33,203 nt of DNA, taken from positions 1 to 33,203 of the forward strand of contig JAHIOW010000037.1 of assembly GCA_018895075.1 (NCBI GenBank), given 5' to 3'. This document shows positions 12,810 to 24,243 of this stretch, in pieces. The notes beneath the pieces were generated by a model that did not search any database, had not been told where the DNA came from, and saw only the letters and a list, made by a program, of their open reading frames with translations. The number at the start of each line of letters is the position of its first letter. The first letter of the stretch is position 1. Both the position numbers and the translations under genes were made by a program. The stretch is from Candidatus Omnitrophota bacterium. Lineage in GTDB: Bacteria; Omnitrophota; Gorgyraeia; Gygaellales; Profunditerraquicolaceae.

Positions 12810-12837
12810 TTGACAAAAGAATTTTATTTAGTAAAAT
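12810..12837 (+). promoter_or_regulatory. Candidate sigma-70-type promoter
   Basis: A perfect TTGACA (12810-12815) and TAAAAT (12832-12837) are separated by 16 bases in the A/T-rich spacer after rsmA. It would serve the endonuclease-like ORF, tRNA-Thr, rpmG, tRNA-Trp and possibly the secE-nusG cluster. A second TTGACA at 12853-12858 has no well-spaced -10 box. Confidence 0.55.
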
Positions 12838-12911: not shown

Positions 12912-13571
12912 ATGCTTGAGATTAAAGAAATTAAGCGCCTGTATCAAAAAGGTAAATCTGCTGCTGAGGTAGGCAAAGACTTAGGGGTCTCCTGGCGAAA
13001 GGTAATTTATCTTATGGATAAATACGGGGTTAAACGCCGTTCACGCAGCGAAGCAATCTATTGCAAACATAATCCCGATGGAGATCCATTTAAGATTATA
13101 AAACAATTGACGCCGCAGCAGGGACTTTTGAAAGCTTTGGCATTGGGATTATATTGGTCTGAAGGCTCTAAATACAATCCTATTTCAATACGATTAACTA
13201 ATTCCGATCCGTCTTTATTAAAGATATTTATTAAGTTCCTCAGAGACATATGTGGCGTAAATCATCAAAAAATTAAACTATGGTTGACTGTTCATCCTGA
13301 TACGTTAATCCAAAAGGCTCAAGACTACTGGAGCTATCAGCTGAATATACCCAGTTCGCAATTTAGTAAAACAGTAATTATTAACCATCACGGAAACGGA
13401 ACTTTTAAAAACAAGTCTCTCTATGGTGCAGCTACAGTGTGTGTACATAATATGAAACTAAGGCAAATTATACAGGAATGGTTGAATGACTATGCCCACG
13501 TAGCTCAGTCGGTAGAGCACATGCATGGTAAGCCTGAGGTCACCGGTTCGATTCCGGTCGTGGGCTTTTGA
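12912..13571 (+). CDS. Putative HTH plus LAGLIDADG-like protein whose ORF runs through tRNA-Thr
   Basis: I do not recognise a named gene. Residues 3-45 look like a resolvase/Hin-type helix-turn-helix (KGKSAAEVGKDLGVSWRKV). Residues 77-87, ALGLYWSEGSK, resemble the LAGLIDADG homing-endonuclease motif with Glu in place of the catalytic Asp. The following RLTNSDPSLLKIFIKFL and VCVHNMKLRQII resemble the helical parts of that fold. Residues 195-219 are not ordinary protein sequence: they are the in-frame translation of the tRNA-Thr gene, and the stop lies just past the tRNA 3' end. The functional part may therefore be about 194 residues. A DNA-binding or nuclease role is inference from the motif only. 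Confidence 0.6.
   Translation: MLEIKEIKRLYQKGKSAAEVGKDLGVSWRKVIYLMDKYGVKRRSRSEAIYCKHNPDGDPFKIIKQLTPQQGLLKALALGLYWSEGSKYNPISIRLTNSDPSLLKIFIKFLRDICGVNHQKIKLWLTVHPDTLIQKAQDYWSYQLNIPSSQFSKTVIINHHGNGTFKNKSLYGAATVCVHNMKLRQIIQEWLNDYAHVAQSVEHMHGKPEVTGSIPVVGF
13494..13566 (+). tRNA. tRNA-Thr (anticodon GGT)
   Basis: The 73-base cloverleaf has acceptor arms GCCCACG/CGTGGGC, D-stem GCTC/GAGC, T-stem ACCGG/CCGGT with loop TTCGATT, and anticodon loop ATGGTAA giving GGT. The anticodon stem CATGC/GCCTG contains one T-C mismatch (29-41). The 3' CCA is not encoded. The gene lies wholly inside the 3' end of the preceding ORF. Confidence 0.95.
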
Positions 13572-13598: not shown

Positions 13599-13748
13599 AT
13601 GCGCGAGATTATCACATTAGGATGTACTATTTGCAAAAATAGGAATTATACAACCACAAAGAATAAAAAATTGCAACAGGAGAAACTAGAGCTAAGTAAA
13701 TTCTGTAAATTCTGTCGTAGGCATACGATACATAAAGAGATAAAATAG
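13599..13748 (+). CDS. rpmG: 50S ribosomal protein L33 (not in ORF track)
   Basis: L33 is a small 50S protein near the E site. The 49-residue ORF begins [20 protein letters not shown] and contains two cysteine pairs, CTIC and CKFC, as in zinc-ribbon L33 proteins. Its position between a tRNA-Thr and tRNA-Trp, just before secE-nusG, is where rpmG occurs in many bacteria, often preceded by tuf, which here is located downstream instead. No clear Shine-Dalgarno is visible. The TAG stop shares its last two bases with the first two of tRNA-Trp. Confidence 0.94.
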
Positions 13749-13817
13749 GAGCGTCGGTTAATGGCAAACCAACGGTCTCCAAAACCGTGACTGCAGGTTC
13801 GACTCCTGCCGCTCCTG
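13747..13817 (+). tRNA. tRNA-Trp (anticodon CCA)
   Basis: The 71-base cloverleaf has acceptor arms AGGAGCG/CGCTCCT, D-stem GGTT/AACC, anticodon stem ACGGT/ACCGT with loop CTCCAAA giving CCA, and T-stem GCAGG/CCTGC. The discriminator is G and the 3' CCA is not encoded. Its 5' end lies within the rpmG stop codon. Confidence 0.97.
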
Positions 13818-13847
13818 CGGAAAATTAGGAGGCAAAACTGTCGCTAG

Positions 13848-16746: not shown

Positions 16747-16782
16747 CGACAAGAAAAGTGTAGCTTGGGAGATAAGCGAGAA

Positions 16783-19700
16783 ATGATTAAACGGAAAAAT
16801 TTTGCGAAGTTTAAAGAAGTTTACGAACTTCCTTATCTTCTTGATGTTCAACTTGTCTCTTACCATGAATTTTTACAACTAGATGTCGATGATCCTATGG
16901 CTAGAAAACATCAAGGCCTCCAGGAGGTGTTTGAGGAAATATTTCCTATAGAGGACCTCAATCGTTCTATAAAATTAGAATTTATCAGTTATTCTCTAGG
17001 CAAGCCTAAATATAGTCTCGCTGAATCTAAAAGACGGGCTTTGACATACGCCGCGCCACTTAAGGTAAAATTTAGACTAATTACGCCTCATGAAACCAAA
17101 GAACAGGATGCCTATTTCGGAGAGTTACCTTTAATGACCGCGACAGGTAGTTTTGTTATTCATGGTGAAGAACGTGTGGTGGTAAGTCAACTTCAACGTT
17201 CTCCGGGTGTGGTTTTTGAAGAGGAACAGCATCCCACGGGTAAAAAGATATTTTATGGACGTATTATTCCTTCTCGGGGCGCGTGGTTGGAGTTTAAATA
17301 TGACCTGTCAGAGACCATACTTGTTTATGTAGATAGACGCAGAAGCTTTCCTGCCACGCAAATTTTAAGGATACTTGGTTTTTCCACGGATCAGGAGATC
17401 ATTTCAGCCTTTAGCAAAGAGCATGTAGAAATAATAAATACCTTAAAGAAAGATTACACTCAGAACAAAGAAGAGGCTTATTTAGATTTCTATCGTAAAT
17501 TCAGACCAACCGAACCAGTTACTAAAGAGACGGCAGGGGCATTATTTTATAGATTATTCTTTGATCCTAATAGGTATGATTTAGAACGGGTAGGTAGGTT
17601 TATCCTTAATAGAAAATTGAAGATGGATGTCTCTTTAGAAAAGAGAATTCTTGATTCAGCTACGGTTATTAAAACAATAGAATACCTTATTGGATTAAAT
17701 ACAGGTGAAGGTAGCATTGATGATATAGACCATTTAGGTAATCGTCGGGTAAAGACAGTAGGAGATCTAGTACAGAATCAAGTAAGGATTGGGATGAGTC
17801 GGATTGAACGCTCTATAAGGGAGAGGTTAAGCATATTAGGTGATTTTGGCAGCCTCAGTGTCCACCACCTTATAAACTCAAAACTACTATCCAATCAGAT
17901 ACGTGATTTCTTTGGCCGCAGTCAACTTTCCCAGTTTATGGATCAGGTAAACCCCTTAGCTGAGATGACTCACCGCAGAAGACTAAGCGCTTTAGGTCCA
18001 GGTGGACTATCGCGTGAAAGGGCGGGTTTTGAGGTTAGAGATATACACTCTTCTCATTATGGAAGGATCTGCCCTATTGAGACGCCCGAAGGCTCAAATG
18101 TTGGCCTGATTTCTTCTTTGAGTACCTATGCTCGGGTTAATTCTTTGGGGCTGCTGGAGACTCCTTATAGAAAAGTAGAGGATGGTCATGTTACGCGTAA
18201 GATTGTGTATCTAACCGCTGATATTGAAGAAGACAAGGTTATTGCCCAGGCAAATGTCCCATTGACTAGTGACGGATATTTTGTAGAACGGGAGGTGTCT
18301 TGCCGCTATAAAGGTGATTTTCCTAAAGTTTCTGCCAAACACGTTGAATATATGGACGTCTCCCCTAAGCAGCTTGTTTCAGTAGCTGCCTCTTTAATCC
18401 CATTCTTAGAACACGATGATGCCAACCGTGCACTTATGGGTTCAAACATGCAAAGGCAAGCAGTGCCATTGATGATTACCGAGGCACCCATTGTAGGAAC
18501 ACAGATGGAGTCCAAGGTAGCTCGTGATTCCGGTGCGGTAGTGGTGGCAGAAGAATCTGGGAAGGTAACCTATGTAGATTCTGCTGCAATTACTATTGGT
18601 AGAAATACTTATCATTTAAAGAAATTTATGCGTACAAACGCCGATACCTGTGTAAATCAGCGGCCTCTGGTAAAATTGGGTGAACATGTTCAAAAGGGTG
18701 ATGTTATTGCTGATGGCATGAGTACTAAAAATGGTGAAATGGCACTGGGAAGGAATTTGTTAGTCGCTTTTATGCCCTGGAGGGGGTATAATTTTGAAGA
18801 TGCAATATTAATCAGTGAAAAAGTAATAAAAGAAGACGCCTTTACTTCTATACATATAGAAGAGTTTGAAATCGAAGCAACTGAGACTCGTTTAGGAAAC
18901 GAGGAAATAAGCCGGGATATACCCAATGTTAGTGAAGAGGCCTTAAAGAATTTAGATGATAACGGTATAATTCGTATCGGTGCCGAGGTTGGTCCCGGAG
19001 ATATTCTTGTGGGTAAACTTACTCCTAAAACAGAATCTGAACTTTCTCCTGAAGAGAGGCTACTGCGTGCTATATTTGGCGAAAAGGCTTCCGACGTACG
19101 TGATACCTCTTTGACTGTTCCTCCCGGTGTAGAAGGGGTAATAGTAGATGCAGATGTATTTGCGCGTAAAGAGCGAGGGAGGAAATCCAAAGAGGATAAA
19201 ACCAAAGAGTTAGCCAAGATCAGAGAACTCAAGAATTATTATAAACAGGAAATAGAATTTATACAGAGTCAAAAGATAAGACGTTTATCCGGACTTTTAG
19301 GTGTGGATAAAACAAAAATAGATAAGGTTGATTTTAGTGATAATGAGGAGGCAAAAATTCTGGCTTCTTCTTTTGATGAGCAAATACATGAATTATTAGC
19401 TGAAGAACAACAGGAGATTGCAAAAGTAAGGCGCGGTGATGAGTTACCGCCCGGTGTCTTAAAAAGGGTGGTTGTGCACGTAGCTACAAAACGTAGACTT
19501 CTAGAGGGTGACAAGCTTGCTGGTAGACATGGCAATAAGGGCGTGGTGGCACGGATATTGCCTGAAGAGGACATGCCTTTTTTACCCGATGGTACTCCCG
19601 TAGAAATCGTCTTAAATCCTTTGGGTGTTCCTTCGCGTATGAATATCGGTCAAATCTTAGAGACCCACCTTGGGTGGGCAACCAAGGTATTAAATCTCTG

Positions 19701-22700
19701 CGTGGACAGTCCGGTATTTGACGGCGCTAATGAAGAAGAGATTAAGGAGATGCTAAAAAAGGCAGGCCTGCCAGATGATGGTAAGATTACGATTTATGAT
19801 GGTTATACTGGCGAACCTTTTGAACAGAAGATAACTGTGGGCTATATTTATATGATGAAGCTAATTCACCTGGTCGCTGAAAAGATCCATGCCCGTTCCA
19901 TCGGCCCCTATTCTTTGGTTACACAGCAACCATTGGGCGGTAAAGCCCAGTTTGGAGGTCAAAGATTAGGCGAGATGGAAGTTTGGGCTTTAGAGGCTTA
20001 TGGCGCAGCATTTACTTTACAAGAGATGCTTACCGTAAAAAGCGATGATGTATTAGGTAGAACACGCATCTATGAAGCAATTGTTAAAGGAGAACAACGG
20101 CTAACGCATGGGACGCCAGAATCATTTAATGTTTTAATAAAAGAATTACAAGGTTTGTGTTTGGATGTACGTACAGAGAATGCAAAGGATAAATCCAGCG
20201 TATTTGATAACATTTCCATAAGGATTGCTTCAGCTAAAGTGATAAGATCTTGGTCACGCGGAGAAGTAAAGAAAGCAGAAACTATAAATTACCGCACCCT
20301 CAAGCCAGAGAAAGATGGTTTATTCTGTGAGAAGATATTTGGTCCGGTGCGTGATTGGGAATGTCATTGTGGTAAATATAAAGGTATAAAGTTTAAAGGT
20401 ATTACCTGTGATCGTTGCGGTGTAACCGTAGATCGTTCTTCTGTAAGACGAGAGCGTATGGGTCAACTGGAGTTGGCTGCACCAGTTACGCATATCTGGT
20501 TTTTTAAAGTAGTACCAGGTAAGATGTCGGCACTATTAGATATCTCTTTAAGAAATTTGGAGAAGATAATCTATTATGAAGAATATGTGGTAATTGATCC
20601 AGCAAGTACGCCCTTAAAGAAAAAAGAGCTTTTGAGTGAAGAAAGATACCAAGAGGCAGTTAATAAGTATGGGCAGAATTCGTTTAAGGCTAAGATTGGA
20701 GCTGAGGCTATAAGAGATTTATTAGCTGAATTAGACCTCGATGATTTCTCTCGGAGGTTACGTCGAGATTTAGAAAAATCAAAAGAGACATTAAACGATC
20801 GCAAGGCATTAAAAACCTTAAAAATCGTTGAGGATTTTAAACAATCGGGTAATAAACCTGAATGGATGATTTTAGAAGTTTTACCTATTATTCCGCCAGA
20901 TTTAAGGCCTCTGGTTCCATTAGACGGGGGAAAGTTTGCTACTTCAGACTTGAATGATTTATATCGAAGGGTAATAAATCGTAACAACCGCCTAAAGAAA
21001 CTTATGGAATTAAATGCTCCGGAGATAATTATCCGTAATGAAAAAAGGATGCTTCAAGAGGCAGTGGATGCCCTTTTAGATAACGGTAGACACGGTAGGC
21101 CTGTAATGGCTGCAAACAATCGGCCCTTGAAATCACTTTCTGATATGCTTAAAGGCAAGCAGGGTAGATTTAGGCAAAATCTTTTAGGTAAACGCGTAGA
21201 TTATTCTGGCCGTTCAGTAATTGTAGTAGGGCCCGAACTTAAATTACATGAATGTGGATTACCCAAACAAATGGCCCTGGAGTTGTTTGAACCATTTATC
21301 ATAAAGAAGCTAAGAGAAAAAGGATTTGTGCATACTATAAAAAGTGCTCGCCGGATGGTTGAACGCGGTAAGATTGAGGTCTGGGATATTTTAGATGAGA
21401 TCATAAAAGACCACCCTGTACTTTTAAACCGCGCACCCACCTTACATCGTTTGAGCATTCAGGCATTTCAGCCCGTATTAGTTGAAGGTAAATCCATAAA
21501 AATTCATCCCTTAGTATGTACTGCCTTTAACGCAGATTTTGATGGTGACCAGATGGCCGTACACGTGCCTCTGTCCTTAGAGTCACAGCTGGAAGCTAAG
21601 ATTCTTATGCTTTCTATAAACAATATATTTTCCCCTTCAAATGGTCATCCCATTGTTAGTCCGACGCAGGACATTATTTTAGGCCTATCTTATATCTCCA
21701 AAGAGAAATCTGGTGTAAAAGGAGAAAATAAAATATTCGCTCATTCTGATGGGGTCCTTATTGCCTATGAAGATAAAGAAGTGGCGCTACACGCCAAGAT
21801 AAAATTAAGGATAGAAGGCATTTTTGATGTGGAGGCAAAAAAATTTATCCCTGAAAAACAGATTATTGATACCACGGTAGGTAGGGTTATTTTTAATCAG
21901 GAATTACCCGCGGGCTTTGGTTTTGTAAATAAAGAACTAAATAAAAATAATGTAAGTATAATTGTAACCGAATGTTATAAGCGCTTTGGCCAGCAGAAAA
22001 CTGTTCAATTACTTGATGATATCAAAAGATTAGGATTTAAGTTTGCAACCCTGGGTGGTATTACTATAGGGATAGATGACTTGGTGATTCCTAAAGCAAA
22101 ACAGGATGTCTTAAAGGAATCCAGACTAGAAGTTGCTAAGGTTGATGAGCAATATTCCAAAGGTATTATTACTAATAGAGAGCGATATAATAAGGTAATT
22201 GATATCTGGACTCACGCTACCGATAGGGTTTCCGATTTATTATTCAAGGGTATGGAAACATTTAACCCCATATTTATGATGGCAGATTCAGGGGCAAGGG
22301 GTTCAAGGATGCAGGTAAGACAATTAGCGGGCATGCGTGGCCTGATGGCAAAACCTTCAGGTGAAATTATCGAGAGCCCTATCACCGCAAATTTCAGAGA
22401 AGGTTTGACTGTCTTAGAGTATTTTATTTCTTCCCATGGCGCACGAAAAGGCCTTGCTGATACAGCACTTAAGACAGCGGATGCCGGCTATCTTACGCGT
22501 AGGCTTGTAGATGTTACTCAAGAGGTTCTTATCATGGAAGAGGACTGCGGAACACTTAACGGGATTACAGTCTCAGCAATTATTGAGGGCGATGAGGTGG
22601 TGGTCAGCCTAAAAGAACGCATAACCGGAAGGGTTGCTTTAGATAATATTGTAGATATTATTACTGATGAGGTTATTGTCGAACAAGGTTGTGAGATTAG

Positions 22701-24243
22701 CGAAGAAAATGCTGAGATAATAGAAAAGTTAGGTATCGAGAGGATACGTATACGCAGTGTCTTAACCTGTGAATCAGCAAGAGGAGTTTGCGCCAGATGC
22801 TATGGCAGAGATCTATCTACAGGAAGACTGGTTGAGAAGGGCGAGGCAGTAGGAGTGATTGCTGCACAGAGTATTGGTGAGCCCGGTACACAGTTAACAA
22901 TGAGGACATTCCATATAGGTGGTACAGCCTCAAGAATCGTTGAACAATCAGTTATAAAATCAAAAAACAAAGGAACGATTAAATACCATAGCCTAAAGGT
23001 TGCTTCAAAGAATAAAGAATTCATTGTTTTAAATAGAAACGGTTTAATAAGTATAAATGATAAACAGGGCAGAGAGATTGAGCGCTATCCTGTACCGCAG
23101 GGTGCATTTATAAGTATTACAGAAGGCGGTGAGATAACCGCAGGTGTTTCATTTGTCCGCTGGGACCCTTATACATTGCCTATCCTCACCGAGGTCAAAG
23201 GATATGTAAAATATGAAGATTTACGAGAAAACCTAACAGTTAGAGAAGAATTAAATCCAGTTACGAAATTAACTGAGAGGGTGGTAGTTGAACATAAACA
23301 GGAATATCACCCCCAGATATTGATTTTAGACGAAAAGAAACAAGTCCTAGGAATATATCCTATTTCGGTAGGGGCACATATATTGGTGAAGGATAATCAA
23401 AAGATAGACGCTGGAGATCTTTTAGCTAAGATACCGCGTTTGGTGGTAAAGACAAGAGATATTACTGGCGGTCTTCCCCGTGTAGCGGAGCTATTTGAGG
23501 CAAGAAGACCAAAAGACCCTGCAGTTATAAGTGAGATAGACGGTTTTGTAGAATTCAGCCAGACCAAAAAAGGCCAACGCGTTATTATTGTAAAGTCTTC
23601 CACTGGTATGCAGAGAGAGTATACTATTCCGCATGGTAAACACCCCAATGTTTATAAAGGCGATAAGGTTATTGCCGGTCAGCAATTAACCGACGGTCCA
23701 GTGGTATTACAGGATATCCTAAGGGTTTGTGGCGATAAAGTCCTACAGGAATATTTAGTTAATGAGGTCCAAGAGGTTTATAGGCTTCAGGGCGTGCGTA
23801 TAAATGACAAACACATTGAGCTGATTATTAGGCAGATGTTAAAAAAGGTCAGGATTGAAGATGCCGGTGATACAGAATTCTTAGCTACCCAACAGGTAGA
23901 TAAATGGAAATTCCAAAAGGAGAATATGCGAGTGATGAAAAAAGGCGGGAAGCCTGCCTTAGCCACACCTTTATTATTAGGCGTTACCAAAGCCTCTTTG
24001 ACTACAGAGAGCTTTATATCAGCCGCCAGTTTCCAGGAGACGACGCGCGTACTTACTAATGCCGCAGCCTCCGGAAAGTATGATGAGCTTTTTGGCTTAA
24101 AGGAGAATGTTATTGTTGGCCATCTTATTCCTGCAGGTACAGGTTTTCCCGAGCATCGGGATATTGAGTTAACTAAGCTTCTGCAAGATAAGAAAGAAGG
24201 CCAGATAGAGCAAGAGCTGGTAACCAAGCAGACAAGAGAGTAA
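16783..24243 (+). CDS. rpoBC: Fused RNA polymerase beta-beta' subunit
   Basis: This single 2,486-residue ORF contains both large RNA polymerase subunits. The beta part (about 1-1129) has the rifampicin-region motif [20 protein letters not shown] near 380-400, [26 protein letters not shown] near 914, and ends [10 protein letters not shown]. After a linker of about 15 residues, the beta' part opens [19 protein letters not shown] and continues with the first zinc site CHCGKY...CDRCG from C1194, the catalytic NADFDGD near 1583, and the second zinc site [11 protein letters not shown]. There is no stop or plausible rpoC start at the junction. The track's TTG at 16765 is less likely than ATG 16783, which matches family N-termini and has GGGAG upstream. 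rpsL follows after four bases. Confidence 0.96.

Follow-up and report, generated by a model that had tools for sequence, protein, structure and literature searches.

The window, a stretch of 33,203 nucleotides, contains on its forward strand an ORF of 219 amino acids (12912..13571; ATG start, TGA end), which consists of a helix-turn-helix (HTH), a predicted LAGLIDADG-like domain and a tRNA-encoded tail. The ORF is situated 3' of rsmA and 5' of rpmG, tRNA-Trp, and nusG. By synteny, rpmG (ribosomal protein L33; 13599..13748, forward strand) together with tRNA-Trp(CCA) (a tRNA call at 13747..13818, forward strand) and nusG marks a conserved locus. The 3' end of the ORF coincides with a tRNA-Thr(GGT) gene on the same strand (13494..13566) of a foreign type (GCCCACG...CGTGGGC), which was called by ARAGORN and scored 64.8 bits with the Rfam tRNA model. 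Codon 195 of the ORF begins at tRNA base 1, so that all 73 nucleotides of the tRNA are in frame as its last codons, and the TGA stop codon (13569..13571, forward strand) ends five bases beyond the tRNA. An earlier note had described a frame that passes through the whole tRNA-Thr gene and stops past it, and the coordinates of the ORF and the tRNA calls bear out both statements. The conserved domain of the encoded protein stops at residue ~192, just 5' of the tRNA. At the same site, the related genomes G423 and G415 have orthologues that are 79% and 69% identical in amino-acid sequence, respectively, and comparison with the G423 orthologue gave dN 0.110 and dS 0.631 (ratio ~0.17). Thus, the ORF is a protein under selection and not a chance frame.

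A likely sigma-70 promoter (TTGACA-16-TAAAAT; 12810..12837, forward strand) with 11 of 12 matches in a consensus scan precedes the ORF and probably belongs to the tRNA operon. By eye, a similar promoter is found 5' of the ORF in G423 and 5' of the tRNA in ORF-less relatives. In a set of such relatives (L226-L245), a common promoter and leader lie ~100-160 nt 5' of tRNA-Thr(GGT), and inspection by eye showed a hairpin-like structure followed by a T-run. This leader may act as an attenuator of the region that comprises the tRNA, rpmG, secE, and nusG. Elsewhere in the window, a forward-strand ORF of 2492 amino acids (16765-24243) matches RpoB in its first half and RpoC in its second half, and represents a fused beta-beta' RNA polymerase gene.

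The N-terminal part of the ORF protein (residues 3-48; 12918..13055, forward strand) was assigned as an HTH with an RRSRSEA segment, based on Pfam HTH matches, on helices in the structural model (residues 4-12, 17-24, and 28-37), and on its likeness to an HTH protein encoded in the same genome (L315). The Pfam HTH matches are weak and below threshold in the window protein and stronger in its homologues. Residues 68-194 (13113..13493, forward strand) form a mixed alpha/beta domain in an AlphaFold2 model (pLDDT 94), which opens with the LAGLIDADG-like helix ALGLYWSEG (residues 77-85; 13140..13166, forward strand). Y81, E84, and G85 of this motif are invariant across 77 aligned homologues, as are N97, W140, and G172. 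As expected of a LAGLIDADG helix, the motif thus has an invariant acidic residue, E84 (together with G85), and residues 68-84 are helical in the model. For the pattern search on the family, alignment A1 was too diverse and alignment A2 was usable.

Neither Pfam nor NCBIfam contains a LAGLIDADG or GIY-YIG model that matches the protein. In profile-profile comparison, the family scored 25.9 against LAGLIDADG_3 (P 0.001), and 20 column shuffles reached at most 12.6. BLASTP aligned the ORF protein collinearly with L315, an HTH plus LAGLIDADG_3 protein (E 4e-4). A fold search of the PDB returned no strong match; the best homing endonuclease was the intein endonuclease 7qss (prob 0.99, E 0.035, TM 0.33). 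Several endonucleases and LAGLIDADG proteins, all with low TM, were among the top matches in a fold search of BFVD, while a profile search of the PDB retrieved matches to the HTH only. The C-terminal part folded from the single sequence had a pLDDT of 42. Because the curated models fail and the fold matches are weak, we do not class the ORF as a proven LAGLIDADG member. The best reading is a LAGLIDADG-like protein with a single motif and an HTH, predicted to be an endonuclease. The earlier proposal that the N-terminal HTH and ALGLYWSEG denote a homing-type element lodged against a tRNA gene is supported by the profile link to LAGLIDADG_3 and by the tRNA positions of the homologues (see below), although the structure searches gave weak matches.

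Protein searches that were blind to tRNA genes covered the same class, with homologues in 92 of 384 genomes, as well as Omnitrophota, Patescibacteria, and Saganbacteria records, and recovered 167 distinct homologues in total. A tRNA gene is located within 100 nt of 162 of these homologues, mostly at the exact tRNA edge. Of the five exceptions, two are pieces close to a contig end and a third copy is truncated by a contig end; the other two are the second half of an interrupted frame and the leading copy in a tandem arrangement. For comparison, of the 30 LAGLIDADG_3 loci that scored highest in this class, most of them in long frames of intein size, only one has a tRNA within ~1.5 kb. The lodging against a tRNA gene that was first noted for the window ORF is thus a property of nearly the whole family, whose genes are free-standing: they lie outside introns and inteins and adjoin their presumed target gene. 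The positions of family members relative to the tRNA vary: some are found upstream in the same orientation, some immediately downstream, and some between two tRNA genes, and others are in antisense orientation at the 3' end of tRNA-Ala. In the family tree the tRNA-site label changes 32 times, compared to 113-122 times after shuffling; therefore, each clade keeps one tRNA site. The two homologues from viral contigs likewise adjoin tRNA genes. One of these contigs (L276, from IMG/VR) has tRNA calls for Met, Leu, Leu, Ile, Asn, and Asp, and its family ORF lies between the two tRNA-Leu genes. Phage genome records yielded no match, and literature searches turned up no description of this family. 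The ORF has no integrase match in Pfam or NCBIfam, and an insert at tRNA-Val(TAC) described below is essentially the ORF alone, unlike an integrative element at a tRNA site. The family, which is unnamed, probably consists of small, selfish DNA-cutting genes of Omnitrophota and candidate-phylum bacteria. A nuclease or toxin that acts on RNA and cuts tRNA, not tRNA genes, would also be compatible with the tRNA adjacency and with the linkage to a tRNA allele at Thr(GGT) (see below). However, the HTH and the LAGLIDADG-like motif point to DNA, and PADLOC gave weak matches only, in 3 of 13 family members; we thus regard this as the least credible of the explanations considered here.

In the relatives, tRNA-Thr, rpmG, tRNA-Trp, and nusG are retained at the locus of the window ORF, but the ORF itself is mostly absent, and an orthologue exists in only 3 of the 108 genomes of the window's taxonomic family. 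Family f14 was rejected for comparing presence and absence of the ORF at Thr(GGT), since it comprises only 8 genomes, nearly all of which have the ORF. The earlier note had suggested comparing relatives that lack the ORF; this comparison indeed disclosed empty sites at which the tRNA is kept, and empty and filled alleles occur in close relatives. Within genus g29, the tRNA-Val(TAC) site is empty in G028 and filled in G265, where the ORF is inserted between the tRNA promoter and the first base of the tRNA. The insert ends exactly at this base, and the upstream flank common to both genomes runs close to the end of the tRNA promoter (..ATGAATT; the exact left boundary was placed by eye). The Thr-Tyr gap of the same genus exists in three states: without ORF and intron (G265), with a group I-type intron only (G028), and with both intron and ORF (G433). 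In genus g33, G032 has a native tRNA-Thr alone and no ORF. In its relative G423, the ORF is followed by a ~61-nt piece of foreign tRNA-Thr, which precedes an intact native tRNA.

These distributions also bear on the possibility that the HTH protein is a host factor, which regulates, processes, or helps to fold the neighbouring tRNA or acts as an intron maturase. That each clade is stably tied to one tRNA would agree with such a role, as would the finding that 18 of 39 tRNAs adjoining ORFs in the Tyr/intron set contain a group I intron. The introns (RF00028, 87-107 bits) are located in the anticodon region of tRNA-Tyr beside family ORFs, at L002 (1230-1480, reverse strand), L008, L010, L011, L012, L035, L051, and L072. 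However, the ORF is patchily present and relatives without it keep the tRNA, many neighbouring tRNAs have no intron, and G028 carries the intron without an ORF in its Thr-Tyr gap. A host factor is thus improbable. The window ORF itself does not reside inside a group I intron: it adjoins an uninterrupted tRNA-Thr, and introns were seen only in some of the neighbouring Tyr tRNAs of the family.

ORF-less relatives possess a tRNA-Thr of the GCTGGAG type, whereas the window and G415 have a GCCCACG-type tRNA-Thr whose anticodon arm is unusual (A32 plus a mismatch, by eye). G018 has a GCCCACG-type tRNA-Thr without the ORF, and G423 has a decayed copy. Within the window's taxonomic family, the foreign type is found beside the Thr(GGT) ORF in 3 of 3 ORF-bearing genomes, but in only 1 of 26 genomes without the ORF. 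The ORF and the foreign-type tRNA-Thr of the window stand where relatives have the native tRNA-Thr. No other tRNA-Thr(GGT) was found in the window genome, whose assembly is 88% complete. Horizontal movement of the foreign tRNA-Thr unit within the window's family, judged from three proteins for the four genomes that have this tRNA, was not proven statistically (AU p 0.119), and no convincing ORF remnants were detected beside ORF-type tRNAs that lack the ORF. At Val(GAC), one anticodon-stem type accompanies the ORF in 6 of 7 cases versus 2 of 16 without it, a post hoc count that is uncorrected for kinship; the identity of the whole tRNA showed no effect of the ORF (p 0.23). No ORF-tRNA link was seen at Val(TAC), where the tRNA is almost identical in sister genomes with and without the ORF; a recoded tRNA next to the ORF is therefore not a general rule. 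The tRNA sequence appears to move with the ORF sometimes.

Such linkage might indicate that the native tRNA gene is the target which the protein cuts, and that the adjacent recoded, cut-resistant tRNA serves as the antidote, the pair being selfish as a unit. The association at Thr(GGT), the foreign tRNA as the sole Thr(GGT) detected in the window genome, and the anticodon-stem type at Val(GAC) are in line with this cleave-and-rescue scheme. However, the Val(TAC) sister genomes, the survival of the native tRNA beside the ORF in G423, and the limits of the Val(GAC) association argue against it. Moreover, such a linkage would also be expected from co-conversion in the course of ordinary homing. 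Cleave-and-rescue is therefore an unlikely account of the family, although we take it more seriously than the other alternatives. Only slightly better are the chances that a natural cleave-and-rescue element exists here at all, that is, a tRNA-gene-specific endonuclease with its own recoded, cut-resistant tRNA that would be able to replace an essential host tRNA gene.

An RNase P cut would part the mRNA of the window ORF from its stop codon, and the earlier note had proposed that protein and tRNA outputs compete for this reason. If so, selection could have favoured a stop codon within or past the tRNA as a means of coupling the yield of protein to maturation of the tRNA. Among 123 family ORFs upstream of a tRNA on the same strand, 83 have their stop codon inside or beyond the tRNA, a frequency far above chance, versus 26 of 310 other ORFs 5' of tRNAs, some of these controls being family or LAGLIDADG copies themselves. 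However, the remaining 40 of the 123 stop before the tRNA, and family members that are located downstream or antisense cannot use the overlap. Reading through the whole tRNA was observed in 19 of 105 intronless same-strand family cases, while ~40 would be expected at random phase. Since it is rarer than random phase predicts, full read-through was rejected as a selected feature, and the proposed competition is not supported as a selected device. It looks like a passive side effect of position, because an ORF that ends flush with a tRNA takes whatever stop comes next, which is the simplest account. A selected coupling to RNase P is accordingly very improbable, nearly as much so as a tRNA-cleaving toxin. 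The tRNA-derived protein tails that the earlier note mentioned for candidate-phylum annotations are real, and they follow from the insertion site at the tRNA edge.

Taken together, these data make it quite probable that the ORF represents an unnamed, tRNA-specific family of free-standing homing-endonuclease genes, whose proteins have a single LAGLIDADG-like motif and an HTH and which spread by intronless homing. The protein would bind a target site in an ORF-less copy of its tRNA locus and cut it, and repair of the break from an ORF-bearing copy would transfer the ORF together with a variable stretch of the neighbouring tRNA into the site. As the tRNA edge itself is the boundary of the insert, tRNA function would be kept: RNase P or 3' processing could still free the tRNA. 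The ORF would probably be transcribed from the tRNA promoter and often be terminated by a stop codon inside the tRNA.

If this is true, Omnitrophota, candidate-phylum bacteria, and some viral contigs harbour a class of chromosomal selfish genes that are specialised on tRNA gene edges and have no family model in the libraries searched. Their existence would explain the 'tRNA-tailed' proteins of such genomes and offer a route for the replacement of essential tRNA genes. It would also provide many natural pairs with and without the ORF for studying intronless and collaborative homing outside phages.

Several known systems resemble this family. LAGLIDADG-type homing endonucleases also occur in candidate-phylum bacteria, namely in the rRNA introns of CPR bacteria (PMC11270868). 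Those enzymes are encoded within rRNA insertion sequences, in contrast to the tRNA-edge genes described here, and tRNA is absent from the text of that paper. In collaborative homing, a free-standing endonuclease cooperates with an ORF-less group I intron in a neighbouring gene (PMC3984707). The situation at tRNA-Tyr is similar in that the ORF often adjoins a group I intron of ~200 nt within the tRNA. However, intron and ORF are also found apart, and the tRNA-Thr of the window has no intron. Among HTH proteins of the same bacteria with two LAGLIDADG motifs, L315 has a similar HTH-RSxSEA-LAGLIDADG layout, and no tRNA was found near it. L315 and L388 have two motifs and match Pfam PF14528, whereas the present family has one motif and no match. 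LAGLIDADG_3 ORFs of other families, which Pfam recognises, also reside in the Val(TAC)-Asp gap (L388, L371, and L379). Such convergent occupants of tRNA gaps, which are non-random examples met while following this family, support a niche for homing endonucleases. The window's own genome has a LAGLIDADG_3 ORF of another family between tRNA-Cys and tRNA-Leu (L333, on contig C19), and similar cases are L339, L341, and L343.

The closest mode of working is that of SegB, a GIY-YIG enzyme of a phage. SegB of phages T4/T6 is a free-standing homing endonuclease that is encoded beside a tRNA array and cuts inside tRNA genes (PMC13096335). In our own reading, the SegB motif fits the conserved T-arm. Like SegB, the genes of the present family are free-standing and adjoin tRNA genes. 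They differ in encoding an HTH and a LAGLIDADG-like motif, in being mostly chromosomal, and in the attachment of each clade to one tRNA edge.
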